This document shows, piece by piece, positions 1-15,216 of a stretch of DNA of 64,000 nt. Numbering within the stretch: position 1 is the stretch's first letter; the number at the start of each line of letters is the position of its first letter. Below the pieces are notes generated by a model. The model did no database searches. It saw only the letters and a program-made list of their open reading frames with translations, and was not told the origin of the DNA. The DNA is from Pseudomonadota bacterium (GTDB lineage: Bacteria; Desulfobacterota; Desulfobulbia; Desulfobulbales; JAHJIY01), in contig JAHJIY010000027.1 of NCBI GenBank assembly GCA_018823175.1, positions 62,001-126,000 of the forward strand, in the 5' to 3' direction. The translations under genes were made by a program, and so were the position numbers.

Positions 1-786
1 GAAAAAGTTGACGTGGTGGTTGGTTTCAGCCACGAAACAATCAATAATATGTTGGGTGGCAGTTTTCGTTCAAGTTATCGCCCGCTCAATGACAATATTA
101 TTAATGGTCGAATTCGTGGAGTTGGGGCAATCGTCGGCTGCGATAATTATAAACTTTCCGATGAGAATCATGAGATCATCGCCCGTGAATTAATCAAGAA
201 CGATGTTCTGGTGCTGGCCACCGGCTGTGCCGCCACCTCCCTTGGTAAAGCAGGCCTTCTTTGCCCGGAAGCGATCAAGTTTGCCGGCCCCGGCTTACGG
301 GAAGTATGTGAGACGGTCGGCATGCCGCCGGTTCTGCACATGGGTTCTTGTGTCGACAACAGCAGGATCCTGATTGCCGCCACCGAGATGGTACGAGAAG
401 GTGGGCTGGGTGACGACATCAGCGATCTGCCGGCAATCGGCACCGCTCCTTTATGGATGAGTGAAAAAGCGGTTGCCATCGGTCAGTATTTTGTGGCCAG
501 CGGTGCCCAGGTTGTGTTCCAGAATTTGGCAACCACCGGTTCTAAAAAATTCCACAATTACTTGTTGGAAGGGATGATGGACTCTTATGGCGCTGTGTGG
601 AATGTAGCAAAAGAACCTCTTGAAATTGCCAGGATCATGATTGAAAGAATTGATGCCAAACGTGAAGCTCTTGGCATAAACAAACAACGCGAACGTGTGC
701 TCTTCGATATGAAAATGCGTCGTGATCTGGATGCAGGGGCCGGGATTGGTGATGTGGGTTGTACCGGACCACAGCATAACACTTAA
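1..786 (+). CDS. cooS: Carbon monoxide dehydrogenase catalytic subunit, C-terminal part (5' truncated by window edge)
   Basis: The reading frame is open from base 1 and stops at 784-786, giving the last 261 residues of a Ni-Fe-S CO dehydrogenase. This enzyme interconverts CO2 and CO and, in the acetyl-CoA pathway, feeds CO to acetyl-CoA synthase. Visible family motifs are GRIRGV followed by GCDN (residues 36-49 of the fragment), TGCAATSLGKAG (75-85) and HMGSCVDNSR (113-122); cysteines in these blocks are C-cluster ligand candidates. The next genes encode AcsD, AcsB and AcsC, so this is very likely the acetogen-type (acsA) partner of acetyl-CoA synthase and not a stand-alone CO oxidase. The N-terminal B/D-cluster region lies outside the window. 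Confidence 0.95.
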   Translation, partial: EKVDVVVGFSHETINNMLGGSFRSSYRPLNDNIINGRIRGVGAIVGCDNYKLSDENHEIIARELIKNDVLVLATGCAATSLGKAGLLCPEAIKFAGPGLREVCETVGMPPVLHMGSCVDNSRILIAATEMVREGGLGDDISDLPAIGTAPLWMSEKAVAIGQYFVASGAQVVFQNLATTGSKKFHNYLLEGMMDSYGAVWNVAKEPLEIARIMIERIDAKREALGINKQRERVLFDMKMRRDLDAGAGIGDVGCTGPQHNT

Positions 787-882: not shown

Positions 883-3465
883 ATGAAATCGGGTAGCCGT
901 TTAGAACGTATATTAACGTCTGGCGCATTCGCTGTTACCGGAGAGCTTGGCCCTCCCAAAAATGGCGACCCGGAAGTTGTGCGGGAGAAAGCCCGCCTGC
1001 TGAAAGGAAACGTCGACGCGGTAAATATAACGGATTGTCAAACCGCCATTGTTAGAATGTCCAGCATCAGCGCCGGGCTATTAACTCTTACAGAAGGGGT
1101 TGAGCCGGTCATCCAGATGACCTGCCGTGATCGCAACCGGATCGGCATGCAAAGTGACATTCTTGGGGCCTCGGCCCTGGGCTTGAAAAACCTGCTCTGC
1201 CTGACCGGTGATCATCAGAAATTCGGCAACCACGCCGGCGCCAAAGGCGTTTTTGACATGGATTCAATCCAGATGCTTGGCATGGTCAGAGGCATGCGGG
1301 ATGATAAAATATTCCAGTGCGGGGAAGCAATCAAAAGCCATGAACCAAGGCTATTTCTGGGCGCTGCGGCCAATCCTTTTGCCGGGCCGGCTGAATACCG
1401 GGCCGCCCGACTTGGCAAAAAAGTAGCCAACGGCGCTGATTTTATTCAGACCCAGATTGTTTATAATGTCGAAAAATTCGCAAAATTCATGGCAATGGTT
1501 CGCGATCTGGGACTGCACGAGAAAGTCTATATCCTGGCCGGTGTCACTCCGCCTAAATCTCTGGGTATGGCCCGTTACATGAAAAATTTTGTGCCGGGCA
1601 TGGATGTGACCGACGATGTAATTAAGCGGATGAAAGATGCCAAGGACAAAGAAAATGAAGGGATTAATATCTGCGTTGATATAATCAAGCAGGTCAAAGC
1701 AATAGAAGGGGTGTCCGGCGTCCATATCATGGCAATCGAATGGGAGAGCGCGGTTCCTGAGATTGTAAAGAGGGCTGGCTTGGCCAGCAGGCCGGTACTT
1801 GACGATATGCCTCTTCCGGCTCCGGTTTCAACCCGGGAAACTATTGTAGTTAGTAGCGGCGATCAGTCAACTGCCATAAATTCCACCCTGGAAGCGGCAA
1901 AAGAAGAGGCCCGAAAGATTGTGGCCGCCGCCCATGAAGAAGCCATTAAATTAAAGTCCGGGGCGTCTGGCGTTCCGGTCAGCTCAGAAATTGATGATGC
2001 GGGAGAACACGAGATGAACGAGAAAGAACGCCAGATGGCGTTAGAATCAATCCAGCTTGGCCTGAATGCTTTGAAAAAAGCTTATGGTTTGTCAGATGAT
2101 CAGTTTGATGCTTTGACAAAATTCGCCGGGGCGGAAGCCATCCTTAAAAGGGAACCGGTAACCGGCGCAAAAACTCCGGTTATGCCAGCCGCTCCGGTTA
2201 TCCCGACGGCACCTGTTGCTCCTGCCGCCCCGAAAGCTCCGGTAGCACCGGCGGCACCGGCAATTGACAAATCAGCTGAAGAAACTAAAAAAGCGGCAGA
2301 GGCCAAAGCGGTAGCGGAAGCCAAGGCCGGGGCGGAAGCCAAAAAAGCTGGAGAGGCAAAAGCGGCCGAGGAAGCCAAAAAGAAAGCCGCCGCAGAGGCC
2401 AAAGCGGCTGAGGATGCCAAGAAGTCGGCCCCGGCAAAAGCAGTGAAATCAACGCCGGCGGCCGGGGCAATTGCCGCCGCCGAGCTTTTGGTTGAAAAAA
2501 CACCTTTGGCCGAACGCGCCAGCAAGATTCCGGCGGACAACTACAAAGTTTCCTATACCGGCGCCATCCGCAAATCAGTTCTGGGAACCGGCGGGAATAC
2601 CGTTAACATCGGCGGTGCTACCACCATGCCATTCCAGTTGTTTGAAGGTACGATGCCCAATAAACCTCTCATCGCGATGGAAGTCCTAGATATTGCGCCG
2701 GAAGATTGGCCGGAGACCCTCAGCCGACATTTTGCCGGAGTCATGAATAACGCGGTGGACTGGGCTCAAAAATGCGTCAATGACTATCAGGCAGAAGCAA
2801 TTTGTCTCTCCCTGGTCAGCACCGATCCCAATGGCTTGAACAAACCATCGGCCGAAGCCGCCAAGATTGCAGCGGATGTTATCAGCAAGGTCGATGTGCC
2901 GATTATTCTCTGGGGTTGCGGCAATGGCGAGAAAGATACCGAGACCTTGCGAGAGATTACCGCCATGATCGGCGATAAAAAAGTTTGTCTGGCGCCGCTT
3001 TCCGATGCCAATTATCGGTCAATCGGTGCCACCGCCATGGCCTTCCAGCACCAGATGGTTGCCGCTTCCCCCATTGATGTCAACCTGGCCAAGCAGCTCA
3101 ATATCTTACTGGAAAATCTCGGCGTTTCCCTTGACTCAGTCCAGATCGACCCGTCGATCGGCGCACTTGGTTACGGCATCGAATACACCTATTCCGTCAT
3201 GGAAAGGATCAGACTTGCCGCCCTGACCCAGAAGGATGAAAAATTGCAGGTTCCTTTCATTTGCAATCTGGGTCGAGAGGTCTGGAAAACCAAGGAAACC
3301 AGAATGCCTTCTGACCAAATGATTGGTGATCAGGAGCGACGCGGGGTATTAATGGAAGCCCTTACAGCTACCTGTATGCTGTTGGCCGGCGGTGAAACGC
3401 TGATCATGAGGCATCCGCACTCGATTGCTCTGACCAAATCGTTAATTAAAGGTCTTACTGAATAA
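883..3465 (+). CDS. Fusion protein: methylenetetrahydrofolate reductase (MetF) joined to corrinoid protein subunit AcsD/CdhD
   Basis: This 860-residue protein has three parts. Residues 1 to about 305 resemble the flavoprotein MetF, which reduces methylene-THF to methyl-THF (VTGELGPPK near the start, LCLTGDH, GAAANPF, ILAGVTPP). Residues of about 330-550 form a low-complexity spacer, with a Pro/Ala-Pro stretch followed by a highly charged Ala/Lys/Glu run (about 465-520) that is probably helical. Residues from about 552 to the end match the delta (small) subunit of the corrinoid iron-sulfur protein (VNIGGATTMPFQLFEG, DIAPEDWP, LWGCGNGEKD, DPSIGALGYGIEYTYS). The start ATG has an AAAGGA-like ribosome site. 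The fusion would tether the methyl-THF-forming enzyme to the methyl carrier used by AcsB. No MetV or AcsE gene is seen in the window. The domain calls are firm; the functional benefit is inference. Confidence 0.9.
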   Translation: MKSGSRLERILTSGAFAVTGELGPPKNGDPEVVREKARLLKGNVDAVNITDCQTAIVRMSSISAGLLTLTEGVEPVIQMTCRDRNRIGMQSDILGASALGLKNLLCLTGDHQKFGNHAGAKGVFDMDSIQMLGMVRGMRDDKIFQCGEAIKSHEPRLFLGAAANPFAGPAEYRAARLGKKVANGADFIQTQIVYNVEKFAKFMAMVRDLGLHEKVYILAGVTPPKSLGMARYMKNFVPGMDVTDDVIKRMKDAKDKENEGINICVDIIKQVKAIEGVSGVHIMAIEWESAVPEIVKRAGLASRPVLDDMPLPAPVSTRETIVVSSGDQSTAINSTLEAAKEEARKIVAAAHEEAIKLKSGASGVPVSSEIDDAGEHEMNEKERQMALESIQLGLNALKKAYGLSDDQFDALTKFAGAEAILKREPVTGAKTPVMPAAPVIPTAPVAPAAPKAPVAPAAPAIDKSAEETKKAAEAKAVAEAKAGAEAKKAGEAKAAEEAKKKAAAEAKAAEDAKKSAPAKAVKSTPAAGAIAAAELLVEKTPLAERASKIPADNYKVSYTGAIRKSVLGTGGNTVNIGGATTMPFQLFEGTMPNKPLIAMEVLDIAPEDWPETLSRHFAGVMNNAVDWAQKCVNDYQAEAICLSLVSTDPNGLNKPSAEAAKIAADVISKVDVPIILWGCGNGEKDTETLREITAMIGDKKVCLAPLSDANYRSIGATAMAFQHQMVAASPIDVNLAKQLNILLENLGVSLDSVQIDPSIGALGYGIEYTYSVMERIRLAALTQKDEKLQVPFICNLGREVWKTKETRMPSDQMIGDQERRGVLMEALTATCMLLAGGETLIMRHPHSIALTKSLIKGLTE

Positions 3466-3539: not shown

Positions 3540-5744
3540 ATGTCAAAAATAATCTGCTCAGCAGCGATCAGGGGCGCACATAAAATTTTGGACATGGCCG
3601 AAGAGACTTACGAAGCGGCTATCAAAAAATATGGACCTGAACAGGAAGTTTCCTTTCCCAATACCGCCTATTTTCTCCCGGTTATCTATTCAATGTTGGG
3701 AGCCAAGGTTCAGACCCTTGGCGACATGAAGGACATCTTTCAGGAATGCCGCAAGCTGTTGCCGGCGATGGTCAGTAACGACCTCTGGCTTCCATATCTT
3801 GCTCCGGCCCTTGATGCTGGAATGGCTACCTTCTTTGCCGAAGAGATGTATGAGTCGATCCGGTACCTCAATACCCCCGAATTTTACACCAAGACCGAAG
3901 ATCCAACCTCAGGCAATATCTGGCTTGGTGCGGCGGACGACGTTATCTTCAGAAAGCGCGGTGTTGAGTTTGTTGACGGCACCGCCCCGGGCTTTGCCGC
4001 AATCATGGGGGCACCGCCCAGCAAGGAAATAGCCAGCAAGATCGCTCTTGAGCTACAGGAGAAAAACCTCTACATTTTCATGCACGATGAAAACAACGGG
4101 GTCCGCATGGCTGATCAGCTGGTTGAGGGCGGGGTGCAAGTCGGCTGGAATACCCGCCTTGTTCCTTTTGGCCCCACCTACACCTCCGCCGTCTTTGCCA
4201 TTGGTTTTGCCTGTCGGGTCGCTATGGCCTTTGGCGGGATCAAACCAGGCGACTACCGAGGCAACCTGATTTACAATAAAGATCGGACCTTTGCCTTTGT
4301 CATGGCCCTTGGCCCGGTCAGCGACGAATGGTACGCCAACGCGGCCGGTGCTATCAACTGGGGCTTTCCGACCATCTCCGATTATGACATTCCCGAGGTC
4401 CTGCCTACCGGGATCTGCACTTATGAGCACGTAGTCAGCAATGTGCCCCATAAAGAAATCGTCCAGAAGGCGATTGAGGTTCGTGGCCTTAAGGTTAATA
4501 TCGCCAAGATCGATATCCCGATGTCTTTCGGCCCCGCCTTTGAAGGAGAGCGGATCAGAAAGGACGACCTGTTCATGGAGTGCGGCGGCGGTCGGACCAG
4601 CGGCGTCGAAGTCCTTATTTCTAAAGAGATGTCTGAAATTGAAGACGGTCGGGTCACCGTGGAAGGCAAAGACATCAAAGATATCAAACAGGGTGAGAAT
4701 TTACCTCTGGCTATTCTGGTTGAGGTGGCGGGTCGTGAGATGCAATCCGATTTCGAGCCGATCCTTGAGCGTCAATTTCATCACCTGATCAACTATATCC
4801 AGGGCATCATGCATATGGGTCAGCGCAATATCATGTGGGTCCGGATCGGGAAGGCGGCGGTTGAAAAGGGTTTCTCCCTGGCCCATTTCGGTAAGGTGTT
4901 GCATGGCAAATTGCACCAGGAATTCGGGGCTATTGTTGACAAGATTCAGGTCAAAATATATACCGAGCTGGATAAGGTGGAAGAAGTCCAGGAACTCGCT
5001 CGTTCGGTTTATGCCAAACGGGATGAAAGACTCGGTTCGATGGCGGACGACACCGAGGACATTTTCTATTCCTGCACCCTCTGTCAATCATTTGCGCCAA
5101 GTCATGTCTGTATCATCACCCCGGAGAGAGTCGGGATGTGCGGCGCCTATAATTGGCTGGACGGCAAGGCCTCTTATCAGATCAATCCGACCGGACCTAA
5201 TCAGCCTATAGAAAAAGGCGAATGCCTTGATCCGCAACTTGGGGTATTCAAAGGGATTAACGAGTTTATCAATCAGGCCTCCCGTGGCGCGGTAACCGAT
5301 CTGTCCTGCTATTCACTGATGACCGACCCAATGACCGCCTGCGGTTGTTTTGAGGCGATTGCCGCCATGCTGCCCCAATGCAACGGGATCATGGTTGTTA
5401 ATCGCGATTTCCCGGGCATGACCCCTAGTGGTATGAAGTTTACCACCTTGGCCGGCATGGCAGGCGGCGGCGCTCAGACCCCTGGTTTCATGGGAGTGAG
5501 CAAGCATTACATGACCAGTCCAAAATTGTTCATGGCGGAAGGTGGTCTCAAGCGGGTAGTATGGTTACCAAAAATGCTTAAAGAAGAAATTGCCGAAAAG
5601 CTCAAAATGCGCTGCGAAGAGATGGGGATGCCGGAATTTTTCGAGATGATCGCCACCGAAGAAAACGGGACCACGGAAGAAGAAATTCTCGCCTTCATGA
5701 AAGAAAAGGGTCATCCGGCTCTGAGTATGGAAGCAGCCGTTTAA
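3540..5744 (+). CDS. acsB: Acetyl-CoA synthase catalytic subunit (CO-methylating), AcsB
   Basis: AcsB condenses a methyl group from the corrinoid protein, CO from CO dehydrogenase and CoA into acetyl-CoA at the nickel-containing A-cluster. The length of 734 residues is close to the bacterial enzyme (about 730). The A-cluster cysteines are all present with the spacing known from Moorella: C512, C515, C524 and C534 for the Fe4S4 cube, and the C601-G602-C603 motif for the distal nickel. Other family blocks are RGVEFVDGTAPGFAAI, GGGRTSGVE and NRDFPGMTPSGMKFTTLAGM. AGAGGAG just upstream is a strong ribosome site. The gene sits between acsD (fused) and acsC in one operon-like block. Confidence 0.97.
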   Translation: MSKIICSAAIRGAHKILDMAEETYEAAIKKYGPEQEVSFPNTAYFLPVIYSMLGAKVQTLGDMKDIFQECRKLLPAMVSNDLWLPYLAPALDAGMATFFAEEMYESIRYLNTPEFYTKTEDPTSGNIWLGAADDVIFRKRGVEFVDGTAPGFAAIMGAPPSKEIASKIALELQEKNLYIFMHDENNGVRMADQLVEGGVQVGWNTRLVPFGPTYTSAVFAIGFACRVAMAFGGIKPGDYRGNLIYNKDRTFAFVMALGPVSDEWYANAAGAINWGFPTISDYDIPEVLPTGICTYEHVVSNVPHKEIVQKAIEVRGLKVNIAKIDIPMSFGPAFEGERIRKDDLFMECGGGRTSGVEVLISKEMSEIEDGRVTVEGKDIKDIKQGENLPLAILVEVAGREMQSDFEPILERQFHHLINYIQGIMHMGQRNIMWVRIGKAAVEKGFSLAHFGKVLHGKLHQEFGAIVDKIQVKIYTELDKVEEVQELARSVYAKRDERLGSMADDTEDIFYSCTLCQSFAPSHVCIITPERVGMCGAYNWLDGKASYQINPTGPNQPIEKGECLDPQLGVFKGINEFINQASRGAVTDLSCYSLMTDPMTACGCFEAIAAMLPQCNGIMVVNRDFPGMTPSGMKFTTLAGMAGGGAQTPGFMGVSKHYMTSPKLFMAEGGLKRVVWLPKMLKEEIAEKLKMRCEEMGMPEFFEMIATEENGTTEEEILAFMKEKGHPALSMEAAV

Positions 5745-7361: not shown

Positions 7362-10300
7362 ATGAATATCACCATCAATGGGATGAATATAATTGCCCAA
7401 TCAGGAATCACCATTCTTGAAGCGGCAACCCGTTCGCAAATTTACATTCCCACTCTTTGCCATGTTGCAGGCAAAACTGCTGACGCCCCCTGTGGACTCT
7501 GCGTGGTTGAAATTGAGGGCAGGGAAGGGTTGGTCCGCGCCTGCACCACCCAACTTGCAGAGGGGATGGCTGTTGTTACCGATTCCAGCACGATAAAAAA
7601 ACACCGGATAGAACGACTGTCTTGTTTAGCGGAAACCCACTTCGGTGATTGCAAGGCCCCCTGTAATTTGACCTGTCCCGGGCAAATCAACGTCCAGGGT
7701 TATATTGCCCACGTCAGTAAGGGCGAATATGAAGAAGCATTGCGTCTGGTGATGGAAAGGAATCCTTTTCCCTTTTCAGTAGGCCGGGTATGCCCCCGTT
7801 TTTGTGAGACCAGATGTCGCCGGATTTTAGTCGACGAACCGGTGTCAATAAATCACTTGAAGCGTTTTGTCGCCGACTGGTGCATGACCCACAAAATCGA
7901 TCTGAATATCAGTTGTGAACCAGCTACCGGCAAGCGGGTCGCCATTATCGGCGGCGGACCGTCCGGACTGACCGGCGCTTACTATCTGTCCCGCCGTGGT
8001 CATGATGTAACTGTCTTTGAATCAGAAGCAAAACTTGGCGGCATGCTGCGCTATGGCCTGCCGGAATACAAAATCCCCAAAGATGTGCTGGACTACGAGA
8101 TTTCAGCCATTCTGCGCATGGGGATTTCCGTCCGTCTCAACCAGAAATGGGGTAAAAATTTCACTCTGCAAGATCTGAAAAATCAGGGTTTTGATGCGAT
8201 CATGATCTCAATTGGGGTTCCGATTGATCAGCCCCTTGAGATACCAGGCGCCACTTTACCCAATGTAATTCCAGCCACTAAACTCCTGAAGAATCTTTCT
8301 TCCGGAAAACCAGGCAAATACGGGAACAGGGCGGCAGTGATCGGCGGCAATAATGTCGCAATGGAAACGGCTCGTTCCCTGATCAGGTCCGGAGTGGATG
8401 AGGTTACCATCATCTACCCGCGAGCCAAAACGGAAATGCCGGCCACTCAGCGTAACATCCGAGAAGCGGAGAAAGACGGGGTACGATTTTTGCTCGTATC
8501 CTCACCCGTCCAGATCATGAAAAACGACAGTGGTTGTCTGGATATGGACCTGGTTCGGATGAAACTTGGTGAACCTGACGAAAGAGATGTCCGCCATCCT
8601 GAGGCCATCCCCGGCTCCAACACCATTTTGCAAGTCGACACCGTTGTCTATTCCCAAGGTTTGATGGCCTGCGCCGATAAATTTGAGGGTGGGGAGCTGG
8701 AAAGAACTCTGGAGATAACCCCAAAGAATAATATAAAATCCAATCCCCGAACCTCGCTGACCAATCATCCAGGGATCTATGCCGCCGGAGACGTAACCAG
8801 CGGGCCGCGTTCCGTTATCCAGTCGGTTGTCGCGGCCAGACGCGCGGTGGAAAACATTCACGCCCAGATTATGGATGTTGCCAAAGAAGCAGGAGAAAGC
8901 CGTTTTAATTTTTCCCGTGGTCGCTCTTTTGATGATGTTGACACCAAGATCTTTAAAGGGGTCAAAACCAAGCTGCGCGAAAAAATGCCCGAGCGGGCGC
9001 CTGAAATCAGTACCCAGGATTTCGATGAAATTCGTCTGGGCTTTTCGGAAAAAATGGCCAAAACGGAAGCTGACCGTTGTCTTTCCTGTGGTTGCTCAGC
9101 CTATGATCGCTGCGATCTCAAGGAATTATCCATTGACTACGGCATAGATCCGAACAAAATCGGCTTACGTAAGGTTCCAATCTATGAAAAGGATAAAAGC
9201 CATCCGACGATCATTGTCGATCTAAACAAGTGTATCTTTTGCCAGCGTTGCGTCAACAGCTGTGAGTACGATGCCCTTGAATTATCGGCCACAAGCTTTG
9301 ATCAGAAAGGACGTCCCGAAGGATTGAAGCTGGTTTTCAAAGATAATTGCGTTAACTGCGGTAACTGTGTCGACCATTGTTCAACCGGCACCCTGAACAA
9401 AAGAGACGCTATTGTGCCGGTAATCAACGAGGAAATGCGTGAAGTACGCAGTACCTGTCCTTATTGTGGAGCAGGTTGTCAGTTAATCCTCAAGGTCAAG
9501 GGCGACACCCTGATGGAGGTGACCTCTGACCCGAACCTGGCCCCTAATTACGGCGCTTTATGTGTGAAAGGCAGATACGGCCACAAGTTTGTCCAGCATA
9601 AGGATCGGCTGACCAAACCTCTGATCAGAAAGGGTGGCCAGCTGGTTGAGACCTCCTGGGACGAAGCCCTTAACGAAATTGCCAAACGTTTTTTCGATAT
9701 AAAATCGATGTATGGGGCCGATGCCATCTCGGGATTCAGTTGTGCCCGTGCCACCAATGAAGAAAATTTTCTAATGCAGAAGTTTATGCGGACTGCGATC
9801 GGAACCAACAATATCGATCACTGCGCCCGCCTCTGACACGCTCCCACGGTGGCCAGTTTGGCCCTCACCTTTGGCAGCGGCGCCATGACCAACTCCATTG
9901 CGGATACGGAAAAAACCGACCTGTTTTTAATGATCGGTTCTAATCCTGACACCAGTCATCCAACCATCGGTCTTCGCGTCCATCAGGCCGTGGATCGGGG
10001 CGCTAAGCTTGTGGTCGTCGATCCACGCAAGACAAAACTGGCCGAGCGAGCCGATCTTTGGTTACGGATAAAACCGGGAACAGATGTTGCTTTACTTAAC
10101 GGTTTGATGAGTATCATCATCGAAGAAGATCTCTGGGCCAAAAAGTTTGTTGAAGAGCGGACCGAAGATTTTACTGATCTGGTTAAACTGGCAAAGAAAT
10201 ATACCCCGGAAAAAGTTGCCGAAATTACCGGCCTTCCGGTTGACCAGCTTTTTCAGGCCGCCCGGATGTATGCAGCCGAAGGCCGACACGCCATATTTCA

Positions 10301-11477
10301 CGGGATGGGGATCACCCATTATGTGACCGGCACTGACCGGGTAAAGAGTATTGCCAACCTTGCCATGCTCTGTGGCAAAGTAGGGGTTGAGGGTGGCGGC
10401 TGCAATCCACTGCGCGGCCAAAACAACGTGCAGGGTGCCTGTGACATGGGTGCTTTGTTTAATACTTTGCCTGGCTATGGCGGACTTGAAAACGACGAGT
10501 TGTTCGACCGCTACGAGAAGGTCTGGAAAATCAGACTTCCCAGGCGGCCGGGAAAACCGGCCACCGAGGTCTGGGAAAATGTCTTAAAAGGAGAGATCCG
10601 AGGGGTTTATGTCTTTGGCGAGGATCCGGCGGTGGCGGACCCCAATATCGCCCATGTCCACAAAGCGCTTGAAAAACTCGATTTTCTGGTCGTGCAGGAC
10701 TTGTTTCTCACCGATACTGCAAAAGCGGCCGATGTCGTTTTGCCAGCTGCCTGTTTTGCCGAAAAAGACGGAACTTTTACTAATACGGAAAGACGGGTTC
10801 AAAGAATTCGGAAAGCGGTAAATCCTCCGGGAGACGCAAAGCCTGACTGGGAAATCTTTCGTGATCTATCCAAAAAGATGGGCTACGACATGAATTACAA
10901 TTCGGCGGAAGATGTTTTTGAGGAAATCAGAAGTCTGCTTCCTCAATACGCCGGGATTACCTACGAAAGACTCGAAAAAGTTGGTCTGCAATGGCCGGTT
11001 CCAACCATTGATCATCCGGGAACGGCGGTATTACATACCGAAAAATTCACGCGCGGCAAAGGGCTTTTCATCCCGGAAGATTATATTCCACCGGTCGAAC
11101 TCCCGAACGACGAGTATCCGATGGCTTTTACCACCGGACGCGACCTGGCCCGTTATAACTTCAGCAGCATGACCGGCAAGACCCCGGAGATTGACGTAAT
11201 CAGTCCGGAATGTTTCGCCGAAGTCAACCCGATTGACGCCAAACGGTTAGGAATCACCGAAAAATGCTGGGTTCGCTTGACCTCAAAACGCGGCTCAGTT
11301 GAAATGCGGGCTACTATCACCGACCGTTCGCAGGAAGGAACAATTTTTTCAACATATAACCACCTGGAAGCATTAGTTAACTTTTTGACTCTGGATGCTC
11401 TGGACCGACTGTCCAGGTCACCGGAATACAAACTTTGTGCGATAAAGGTAGAAGTACTGGACGAAAAGGCCGCCTAG
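7362..11477 (+). CDS. fdhA: Selenocysteine-containing formate dehydrogenase alpha subunit with fused GltD-like FAD/NAD(P)H and ferredoxin domains
   Basis: I read this as one 1371-residue protein through the in-frame TGA at 9834-9836, giving Sec825 in the context CARL-U-HAPTV, the known FdhA active-site motif. Domain order: 2Fe-2S ferredoxin (C33, C44, C47, C61); His/Cys cluster site (H81, C88, C97) and a GltD-type Cys-rich N-lobe (C101, C105 and CPRFCETRC); FAD-binding GGGPSG near 195; NAD(P)H-binding GGNN near 326; two Fe4S4 ferredoxin motifs near 623 and 663; Fe4S4 CPYCGAGC near 698; and the molybdo/tungstopterin domain to the end. It should reduce CO2 to formate, or oxidise formate, as the first step of the methyl branch. 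The built-in diaphorase and the following hdrA and mvhD suggest electron exchange with NAD(P)H and a bifurcating Hdr module. Confidence 0.93.
9834..9869 (+). promoter_or_regulatory. Predicted bacterial SECIS element of fdhA
   Basis: The TGA codon at 9834-9836 is followed by a hairpin whose upper stem is GGCC (9851-9854) with GGCC (9860-9863) around loop AGTTT, and whose lower stem is GGT (9848-9850) with ACC (9867-9869). A hairpin with a small G/U-containing loop directly 3' of UGA is what bacterial SelB recognises. The bases just after the TGA also resemble the opening of the Escherichia coli fdhF element. Confidence 0.7.
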
Positions 11478-11541: not shown

Positions 11542-14500
11542 ATGGGACAAAAAGATAAAAAAACAGGGGCCGTCATGGTCGTCGGTGGCGGAGTCGCCGG
11601 CATTCAGGCCGCTCTTGATCTCACCGATTTAGGCTATTACGTCTATCTGGTTGAGAAATCAGCTGCGGTTGGTGGGGCCATGGCCCAGCTCGACAAGACG
11701 TTCCCCACCAATGATTGCTCTCTCTGAATCCTGGCACCTAAGCTGGTAGAGGCCGGTCGGTCTCCAAATATAGAGATACTTTGCAATGCTGATTTACTAT
11801 CAATCAAAGGTAAACCCGGGCAATTCACCGCCCAGCTCAACATGCGGCCCCGGTATATTGATCCGGACAAATGTACCGCCTGTGGCTTATGTAAAACCTA
11901 TTGCCCCAAGCATCTGGTTGATTCATATAATGAAGGTCTGGACCTTACCCGTCCGATCCATATCGACTATCCGCAGGCAGTACCGGCCACCTATTATATT
12001 GATCCGGACTCCTGCCTGCATCTGACCCATGACACCTGTCAGATCTGTGTGCCGACCTGCCGCAGCAATGCGATTGATTTCACCCAGAAGGCCAAGAAAA
12101 AAACGCTGGAAATCGGTGCAATCATCATGTCTCCAGGCTTTGGCCGGGTGCCCGATGAGGCAATGACCAAATACAGCTACGGCAAGCATCCGGACGTTAT
12201 GACCAGTATGGAATTTGAACGGCTCCTTTGTGCCTCCGGTCCTTTCCAGGGTGAGGTCAAATGTCTTTCAGACCGCCGTCATCCTAAAAAACTGGCCTTT
12301 ATTCAATGCGTCGGTTCCAGAGATCTGGGCTGCAACAACGGCTATTGTTCCTCGGTCTGCTGTATGTACGCAATCAAGGAAGCATTGGTGGCCAAGGAAC
12401 ATGATCCCGAGTGCGAAATCACCATATATTATATTGATATGCGGACCCAGGGCAAAGATTTTGACGCGGCCCGAATCAAGGCTGAAAAGATGGGGATCAA
12501 GTTTGTTCGGGCCCGGGTGGCGGATGTAATGCCCTGGAACAATAAGCTCAAGCTTACCTACTCAACCATGGACGGCACCCATTCTTTTGAGCCGTTTGAC
12601 ATGGTTATCCTCTCGGTCGGACTTGATTCGCCGGCCAGTGCCAAAGATCTCAGCAAAATCGGCGGTTTCGAGCTTAATCATTACGATTTTTGCCGGACCA
12701 CCACTTTTGAGCCACTGGTGACCAGTGCTCCCGGCATCTTTGTGGCCGGGGCCTTTCAGGGACCAAAAGATATCCCGGAAAGCGTTACTCAGTCTTCGGC
12801 TGCCGCCGGGATTGCCTCTGCGCTGATCAAAAAGCAACGGGGAAAAGGGGTAGTAATCAAGGAATATCCGTCCGAAGCAGGTCTGGGGGCGGATGAAGAA
12901 CCAAGAATCGGTGTTTTTGTTTGTCATTGCGGGATCAATATCAGCGGTGTGGTCGATGTCCCCGGAGTTGACCAATATGTTGATGGCATGGAAGGAGTGG
13001 TCTACCACGCGGAAAGTCTCTACAGTTGCTCTCAGGATGCCCAGGAAATTCTTAAGGAAAAGATTAAAGAACACAACCTGAACCGGGTAGTGATCGCAGC
13101 CTGTTCGCCCAGAACCCATGAACCACTCTTTCAGGAGACCCTGAAAGATGCCGGTCTTAATCGTTGTCTTATTGAGATGGTCAATATCCGCGATCAATGT
13201 TCCTGGGTCCATGCCAATGAACCGGACAAAGCGACCAATAAGTCAAAAGACCTGATTCGAATGGGGATTGCCAAGGCAAGACATATTAAACCGCTGCCGG
13301 AACAAACTGTACCAGTAACCCCCAAGGCCATTGTGATTGGCGGTGGAGTTGCGGGCATGACGGCTGCTCTTAATATCGCGGAACAGGGTTTTCACTGCTC
13401 ATTGATTGAAAAGTCAGACCAGCTGGGCGGCCATCTCCTGGAACAACGTTCCACTTTGCGCGGAGAAAGTACCACCGATTATCTTAAGAAGCTGATCGGT
13501 CAGGTAAAAGGAAACAAACTGATCGATCTTTTCCTGACCAGCGAACTATTGGCAACCGACGGGTTTGTCGGAAATTTTTCATCCGTCATTAAGGTGAACA
13601 AGGGAAAAGGTAGAAAACCTGTTGAACAGACCATCGATCACGGGGTGATAATCATTGCCACCGGAGGTAAAGAGCATCACCCCCAACAGGTGCTCGGCAA
13701 AAAACTTCCCAAATCAGACAAGATTATCACTCAGCAGGAGTTGGAAGTCAAACTTGATGGCAAGGGTAAAACCAGAGCGCCCAAATCAATAGTCATGATT
13801 CAATGCGCCGGTTCCCGAGGCGACGACCTGGCCTACTGTAGCAAGACCTGTTGTAACCAGGCAGTCAAAAACGCTCTCAAAATCAAGGAGATAAATCAGG
13901 CATCTCAAGTAATTGTTCTCTATCGTGATCTACGGACCTATGGTTTTGCTGAGGATGCCTACCGGGAAGCAAGAGAAAAAGGGGTTATTTTTATTCCATA
14001 CAGCATGGATGAAAAACCTGTTATATCGGCCAAAGGAACCAAAGTTGAAGTTTCATTTGCTGATCCGATCCTGCAGGAAAAAGTCACTTTTTCTCCCGAG
14101 ATGATCGCCCTTAGTGTGGGCATGGTGCCCAATGATACGGAAACCTTAAGTAAGCTGTTGAAGATTCCGGTCAACGAGAATCATTTTTTCTTGGAAGCAC
14201 ATGTTAAACTGCGGCCAGTTGAAATGCCGGTTTCCGGCGTATTTATCTGCGGTCTGGCCCATTCACCAAAACCGGTTGACGAGATCATTGTTCAGGCCCA
14301 GGCCGCAGCGGCCAAGGCGGCCATGCCGCTGGTCAAAGGCAAAGTTTCCGTTGATCCGATTGTTTCCAATGTTAACGAAGATCAATGTATCGGTTGCGGC
14401 CTTTGTGCGAGCCTCTGTCCATACAAGGCGATTGAAATAATTAAAGTAGACAAGACAAGAAAAGCCCGGACCGTTGTTGCAGCCTGTAAAGCCTGTGGAA

Positions 14501-14604
14501 TCTGCGCTTCGCACTGTCCAACTCTGGCTATCACCATGGGCGGTTTTACTAATGAACAAATTTACGCCCAGATCACAGCTTTTGGCGAATCTGAGGAGGG
14601 GTAA
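11542..14604 (+). CDS. hdrA: Selenocysteine-containing heterodisulfide reductase subunit A-like protein with two flavin modules (HdrA)
   Basis: This is 1020 residues when the in-frame TGA at 11725-11727 is read as Sec62 (NDCSL-U-ILAPKLVE; HdrA proteins have Cys or Sec here). ATG 11542 is chosen because TTGGAG lies 6 bases upstream. Features in order: FAD-binding GGGVAG (about 15-20), the DCSL-U cluster-binding site, ferredoxin motifs CTACGLCKTYC (about 111) and a second Cys-rich site, VCHCG, a second FAD module with GGGVAG near 600, and two C-terminal Fe4S4 motifs (CIGCGLC near 949, CKACGIC). HdrA is the flavin-based bifurcating unit that splits electron pairs between ferredoxin and a higher-potential acceptor. 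Its neighbours fdhA and mvhD point to a formate- or NAD(P)H-linked Hdr complex. HdrB and HdrC are not in the window. Confidence 0.92.
11725..11755 (+). promoter_or_regulatory. Predicted SECIS element of hdrA
   Basis: After the TGA at 11725-11727 a weak hairpin can form: CCTGGC with GCCGG as the lower part and ACC with GGT as the upper part around TAAGCT. It is less regular than the mvhD element, so the structure is only suggestive. The Sec call rests mainly on the conserved protein context on both sides of the codon. Confidence 0.5.
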
Positions 14605-14607
14605 TTA

Positions 14608-15216
14608 ATGAGTAAAGACGATTTCAATCCCAAAATACTGGGATTTCTTTGTAACTGGTGTTGTTACGCTGCGGCGGACGCAGCTGGGGTTTCCCGGTAT
14701 CAGTATCCGCCCAATCTGCGGACAATCCGGGTTATGTGTACCGGCCGGATCGATCCGGTTTTTATCCTGCGTGGTTTTGCCGAAGGGGCGGCCGGTATTT
14801 TCTCAGGCGGCTGACAACTCGGCGAATGTCATTACCAGGTTGGTAATTATGATGCAATGGGAGTCAACGGTCTGATCCACAAAGTCTTAAGTGAAGTAGG
14901 GGTTAAACCGGAACGTTACAGTTTGAAATGGGCCTCTGCGGCTGAAGCGCCTCGCTTTGTGAAGCTTATCACAAATTTCACAAATCAGATTAAGGAGTTG
15001 GGTCCGCTTGGTGAAGCAGAAGGTCTGAAACCGGAAGAAATCAAAAAGCGGATCAATAAGGCTTTAGATCTGGTTACCGATCGCAAGTTACGGATGGGTT
15101 TTGGTAATGTAACCAAAGAATTACGTAAAGAAGGAAGCAAGGTTAATGATGAAATAATTGCCGCAGTCATTAACGAAAAACTGACCAAAACCATTAATGC
15201 CGGCCTTATAGGCTGA
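14608..15216 (+). CDS. mvhD: Selenocysteine-containing MvhD/FrhD-type iron-sulfur subunit
   Basis: This is 202 residues with Sec69 encoded by TGA 14812-14814 in the context SGG-U-QLGECHYQVGN, equivalent to the GC-x4-GDCHY motif of MvhD. The upstream FLCNWCCY (residues 12-19) and MCTGRIDP supply the other 2Fe-2S ligand cysteines. MvhD links HdrA to an electron donor such as a hydrogenase or formate dehydrogenase. The ATG is 4 bases past the hdrA stop with GAGGAGGGG as ribosome site, so the two are translationally coupled. The C-terminal tail beyond the MvhD core (about 110-202, charged and helical) resembles the extension in deltaproteobacterial members. Confidence 0.92.
14812..14847 (+). promoter_or_regulatory. 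Predicted SECIS element of mvhD
   Basis: Beginning 16 bases after the TGA at 14812-14814, ATTACC (14831-14836) and GGTAAT (14842-14847) form a perfect 6-bp stem with the loop AGGTT. This stem length, distance and G/U loop fit bacterial SECIS elements closely; it is the cleanest of the three. Confidence 0.75.

Follow-up and report, generated by a model that had tools for sequence, protein, structure and literature searches.

A genuine metF-acsD gene fusion in Desulfobulbales and its probable role in the methyl branch of the Wood-Ljungdahl pathway

Introduction

The locus described here raises the question of whether a single reading frame encodes both MetF, a methylene-tetrahydrofolate (methylene-THF) reductase, and AcsD, the small subunit of the corrinoid iron-sulfur protein, and what such a union could mean for the passage of a methyl group from one to the other. 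The window analyzed is a stretch of 64,000 nucleotides from a Desulfobulbales assembly (GCA_018823175.1; contig JAHJIY010000027.1, positions 62,001 to 126,000), with the frame in question close to its start. An original prediction, made from the letters of this window, described a frame with a MetF-like N-terminus, a linker and a C-terminal AcsD, and held that the two proteins are separate in described organisms. This last statement is refuted by the 2016 genome paper on Desulfurivibrio alkaliphilus AHT2, which includes an "mthfr/acsD fusion" in its abbreviations, modelled on strain MLMS-1 (PMC5016858). That fusion unites the same two domains in a member of the same order, Desulfobulbales, and its cluster shares fhs, a pulE-like gene, folD, acsA, acsB, acsC and formate dehydrogenase with the one reported here.

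In the same paper we found no analysis of the linker, of a MetV partner, or of the distribution or origin of the fusion (PMC5016858). A 2026 study of pathway evolution in Desulfobacterota does not mention the fusion (PMC12827605), and no mention of it was found in genome papers of Thermosulfurimonas and Dissulfurimicrobium (PMC4911364, PMC8780430). The fusion has been recorded before; the present contribution consists of a tree bearing on its single origin, its partnership with MetV, the retention of AcsE, and the structured nature of its linker. Among open-licence papers, the single origin, the metV partner and the structured linker seem to be unreported.

Results

One open frame encodes two enzyme domains

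The fusion gene and its parts are as follows; conservation values refer to an alignment of fusion proteins.

883..3465, + strand: metF-acsD fusion gene; ATG-to-stop frame of 860 residues, its full-length form kept in relatives
883..1797, + strand: MetF domain, residues 1-305; Pfam PF02219, alignment and MTHFR fold match; conservation 0.88
1798..1995, + strand: linker part 1, residues 306-371; variable, conservation 0.45; predicted helix 329-360
1996..2157, + strand: helical hairpin, residues 372-425; conservation 0.79; AlphaFold2 model and alignment
2158..2517, + strand: Ala/Lys/Pro/Glu-rich stretch, residues 426-545; conservation 0.56; predicted long helix 465-510
2539..3462, + strand: AcsD domain, residues 553-860, corrinoid iron-sulfur protein small subunit; PF03599, NF003376, PDB 2h9a/4djd/9fzy; conservation 0.82

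The single frame originally predicted was borne out: 860 codons run uninterrupted from ATG to stop at 883-3465 (+) of the window, and Pfam domain prediction places an MTHFR domain at the N-terminus of the product and a CdhD domain at its C-terminus. When the same domain order was sought in other genomes, full-length fusions were retrieved from about 100 loci, several of them in single-contig genomes. Linkers of related genomes contain no frameshift or stop accident, and the single stop present in each of two draft genomes falls within an enzyme domain. Apart from these two drafts nothing favors a sequencing or assembly error, which, set against the same frame in so many loci, we consider a practically negligible explanation. 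Chance is excluded because the same one-frame domain order recurs across genomes of the order and in ten other families, and the metF-acsD fusion is confirmed as genuine. Automatic annotation in this group can label the gene as a reductase only, or as AcsD only.

The MTHFR domain (PF02219) occupies residues 6-299 and matches the entire profile (positions 1-287 of 287; E 1.8e-36; 126.4 bits against a cut-off of 24), placing the N-terminus within the MetF family and not outside it, the contrary outcome named beforehand. Sequence and fold searches of the PDB retrieved the MTHFR enzymes of T. thermophilus, human and E. coli. In the alignment, E21, D110 and Q191 of the fusion correspond to E28, D120 and Q183 of E. 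coli MetF and are invariant in 50 fusions; they are also present in unfused MetF. The importance of E28 and D120 rests on recorded E. coli mutants, and Q183 we take to be an active-site residue that matters. Conservation of these active-site residues ruled out a degenerate, non-catalytic folate-binding domain, and by the same alignment the fused MetF domain looks catalytic. Its identity to other aligned fused or Wood-Ljungdahl pathway (WLP)-type MetF proteins is 57-76%, as against just 22-23% to E. coli MetF and to the canonical MetF of its own genome; from these values the domain is assigned to the Wood-Ljungdahl type and not to the biosynthetic one.

At the other end, the CdhD domain (PF03599) covers residues 566-805 (E 3.1e-41; 141.9 bits against a cut-off of 24.8), NCBIfam model NF003376 covers residues 553-859 (366 bits against 280), and PDB sequence and fold searches matched the corrinoid protein small subunits 2h9a, 4djd and 9fzy. 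Foldseek, run on an AlphaFold2 model, returned the same two identities, MTHFR and AcsD. The fused AcsD misses the cut-off of the NCBIfam exception model WLP_AcsD (NF040759; 298 against 430 bits), but an unfused AcsD from Desulfobacterota likewise falls below it (322 bits), so that this model marks a narrower lineage and not AcsD as such. Solved AcsD structures (PDB 2h9a, 4djd, 2ycl, 9fzy) have the same fold, with 35-42% identity across the full domain, and the fused AcsD, like AcsD proper, is encoded beside acsB and acsC. The distinction lies in context: AcsD in these structures is free-standing and lacks a long extension, whereas here it is joined to MetF.

Many unfused AcsD proteins of other Desulfobacterota (loci L159-L181, for example L177:886-2436 (-)) bear a C-terminal tail of ~200 residues, rich in Ala, Pro, Lys and Glu, that terminates in a short conserved motif, for example TAAAIQKTEQQKILEMLNRFHKR. 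Fused AcsD proteins are without this tail, which is possibly a docking tail.

The middle region is partly structured

A 200-residue Ala/Pro/Lys linker had been predicted between the domains. That description fits only the low-complexity stretch at about residues 426-545 (37% Ala, 16% Lys, 11% Pro, 11% Glu); the middle region proper spans ~246 residues (306-551), includes a conserved hairpin, and is partly structured rather than a plain flexible linker. In the AlphaFold2 model, residues 329-360 form a helix, 380-421 a hairpin and 465-510 a long helix, separated by disordered segments. The overall confidence of the model is low (pLDDT 67.5, pTM 0.43), and the domain arrangement that it depicts was discarded, the pTM being too low.

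The hairpin at residues 372-425 is recognizable by alignment in long fusions from other families, which measure about 960-1070 residues counted from the MetF start and which carry TPR repeats after the hairpin, significant in several (best E 2.3e-12). Fusions of 880-890 residues (L146, L151) have TPR repeats too, with a less similar middle. No TPR repeats occur in the window protein or its own group; of the 50 alignment members one has them, L087, which is a long fusion and the sole member of that other type. A MetV domain as the source of the extra 300 residues of the long fusions was rejected, since Pfam identifies TPR repeats there instead of PF12225 and metV stands upstream as a gene of its own. 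A conserved element, LPPCPxxxxxEEWxxKWVxR, follows the hairpin and precedes the last TPR repeat in most of the long fusions (L137-L148).

Gene neighborhood and partnership with MetV

Genes of the window surrounding the fusion are listed below.

1..786, + strand: acsA (CO dehydrogenase), 3' part; gene start upstream of the window
3540..5744, + strand: acsB (acetyl-CoA synthase); NF040764, 1086 bits
5845..7203, + strand: acsC (corrinoid protein large subunit); NF003195, 595 bits; expected partner of the AcsD domain
7362..11477, + strand: formate dehydrogenase fused to a GltD-like module; in-frame TGA at 9834-9836, probable selenocysteine
11542..14604, + strand: hdrA-like gene; in-frame TGA at 11725-11727
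14608..15216, + strand: mvhD-like gene; in-frame TGA at 14812-14814

On the 5' side, the series extends beyond the window and comprises fhs, a gspE/pulE-like ATPase gene, folD and acsA. Two further components of the methyl branch are encoded elsewhere, so that metV, acsE and metF-acsD are unlinked in this genome. The acsE gene lies on another contig, its product related to the Moorella enzyme (E 2e-46), and near it is a gene for a 643-residue protein resembling, by inspection only, the corrinoid-activating protein RACo. The metV gene is part of an overlapping hdrC-mvhD-metV trio on contig C20, and the MetV that it encodes has an NGPCGG motif.

In MetFV reductases, which have a MetV with an NGPCGG motif, metV as a rule lies ahead of metF (PMC8515935). 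We observed this arrangement in all 20 loci taken from ten other Desulfobacterota families (19 fused, one split), where metV is directly upstream of metF-acsD and the usual operon reads hdrA-mvhD-hdrC-mvhD-metV-[metF-acsD]-acsB-acsC-acsE-fdhA. Among the unfused WLP-type metF loci fetched from the phylum, metV adjoins metF in 19 of 20. Stand-alone MetV was detected in each of the 47 pathway-carrying genomes among 50 tested and in none of the three that lack the pathway. The original interpretation, right about the frame and both termini, had missed this likely functional partner; judged by the gene pairing with metV, the fused MetF is predicted to be a MetFV-type reductase.

The MetFV subtypes that have been described include MetFV-HdrABC-MvhD (6S type, Moorella thermoacetica; PMC8515935). 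The system reported here resembles it in having a WLP-type MetF, a MetV with NGPCGG, and hdrA, hdrC and mvhD genes, and differs in that the Moorella MetF is free-standing whereas here MetF carries AcsD. From the gene set of the 6S subtype, hdrA, hdrC-like and mvhD genes were found; no HdrB was identified in the hdrC-mvhD-metV trio.

Distribution and origin of the fusion

The same one-frame order, at about 66-75% identity, is present in most pathway-carrying genomes of the order Desulfobulbales, and a Desulfobacterota sample revealed fusions of lower identity in ten further families. Named matches are mostly from Desulfobulbaceae, Desulfocapsa, Desulfobulbus and Desulfurivibrio, and include the cable bacterium Electronema aureum. 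Of 115 genomes sampled from the class, 18 yielded no match of any kind, and the fusion is present in most of those that carry the pathway; in one family (f12), MetF and AcsD are separate proteins in several genera.

The one split case among the 20 loci of other families, L155 (8177-10321, - strand), has metF and acsD adjacent and nearly touching as separate genes within an otherwise similar operon. Its AcsD bears a 98-residue N-terminal extension, as expected of a linker remnant, and the locus probably arose by natural splitting of the fusion. The AcsD domain tree groups the fusions in one clade (100/100), within which the split L155 is nested. The simplest history would be one fusion followed by one later split. 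These two changes are required by the MetF tree as well, but its root is uncertain owing to the very long branches of two distant paralogues. The fusion is an old one among these sulfur bacteria.

Discussion

What the fusion may do

We consider it probable that the fusion is a bifunctional subunit by which the MetFV reductase is tethered to the corrinoid protein, the methyl transfer remaining the task of AcsE. The N-terminal domain would act as the catalytic, flavin-dependent subunit of a MetFV-type methylene-THF reductase, in cooperation with MetV from its separate gene and with electrons probably supplied through MvhD, HdrC and HdrA. The C-terminal domain would join AcsC in the corrinoid iron-sulfur protein. 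The tether of ~246 residues, partly structured, would hold the two domains together, and methyl-THF that the MetF domain produces (or uses up) would be linked to the corrinoid via AcsE; the fusion would in this way co-localize the steps on either side of AcsE and set MetF and AcsD at 1:1. The fusion would, we infer, assemble with MetV and AcsC. With AcsE retained, transfer of the methyl group must still involve a separate protein. The tether is not strictly essential, the L155 lineage having its genes split. We hold a real channelling or local-concentration effect of the tether to be somewhat less likely than not; fused, split and unfused relatives would allow a direct test of it.

A serious rival to any benefit from tethering is simple production of the two domains at 1:1. 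The fusion, arising by read-through of adjacent genes, would merely fix their ratio and common assembly and have no effect on methyl flow. The nearly touching genes of L155, in an otherwise similar operon, are in keeping with this view, as are the persistence of that split lineage and the separate carrier step implied by the retained AcsE. Retention of the fusion in most pathway carriers of the clade, over well more than a dozen families, argues in the other direction, as does a conserved hairpin, accompanied in places by TPR repeats, for which a pure ratio device has no need. We regard this account as somewhat less than likely.

The linker could instead serve as a scaffold, its hairpin (and, in relatives, the TPR repeats) docking the CODH/ACS core, AcsE or further enzymes of the pathway; the fusion would in that case organize a larger assembly. 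Conservation of the hairpin in the alignment, the highly significant TPR repeats of the long fusions, and the Ala/Pro/Lys-rich C-terminal tail with its conserved end motif, frequent in unfused AcsD of the phylum, are compatible with docking; the confinement of TPR repeats to L087 in the alignment weighs against it, and the docking partner is only putative. We judge a scaffold of this kind unlikely.

To a broader scheme we give slightly less credence still. The fusion would be the covalent backbone of a methyl-branch complex, with MetV, Hdr and MvhD at its MetF end, AcsC and CODH/ACS at its AcsD end, and a hairpin/TPR linker recruiting AcsE; the Ala/Pro/Lys-rich tail of unfused AcsD would accomplish the same non-covalently. 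If so, electron-fed formation of methyl-THF and synthesis of acetyl-CoA would take place in one assembly.

That the MetF domain supplants AcsE and hands the methyl group directly to the corrinoid is highly improbable and was rejected: both MetF and AcsE are presumably folate-binding TIM barrels and a tether would permit contact, but the reductase catalytic residues are retained, and AcsE, whose retention speaks against the fusion standing in for it, is encoded in all pathway-carrying genomes tested but the draft G005 (in G007 as a contig-end fragment only) and, in all 20 loci from the ten other families, lies downstream within the operon.

Other genes of this genome

The genome encodes two further MetF proteins, a canonical MetF (contig C93) and a 519-residue MetF-MetV protein (contig C20), and the fused MetF therefore need not be the sole reductase. 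The MetF-MetV gene (L005, 5187-6746 (-)) lies near the metV-mvhD-hdrC trio, and proteins of similar size with a MetV domain are present in most pathway-carrying relatives of this genome. With their in-frame TGA codons read as selenocysteine, the fdhA, hdrA and mvhD products contain ARLUHAPT, CSLUILAPK and GGUQLGEC, respectively. The gspE/pulE gene (type II secretion/pilus ATPase-like; L004, 13244-15454), with no evident tie to carbon fixation, is situated between fhs and folD, and is found also in L031.
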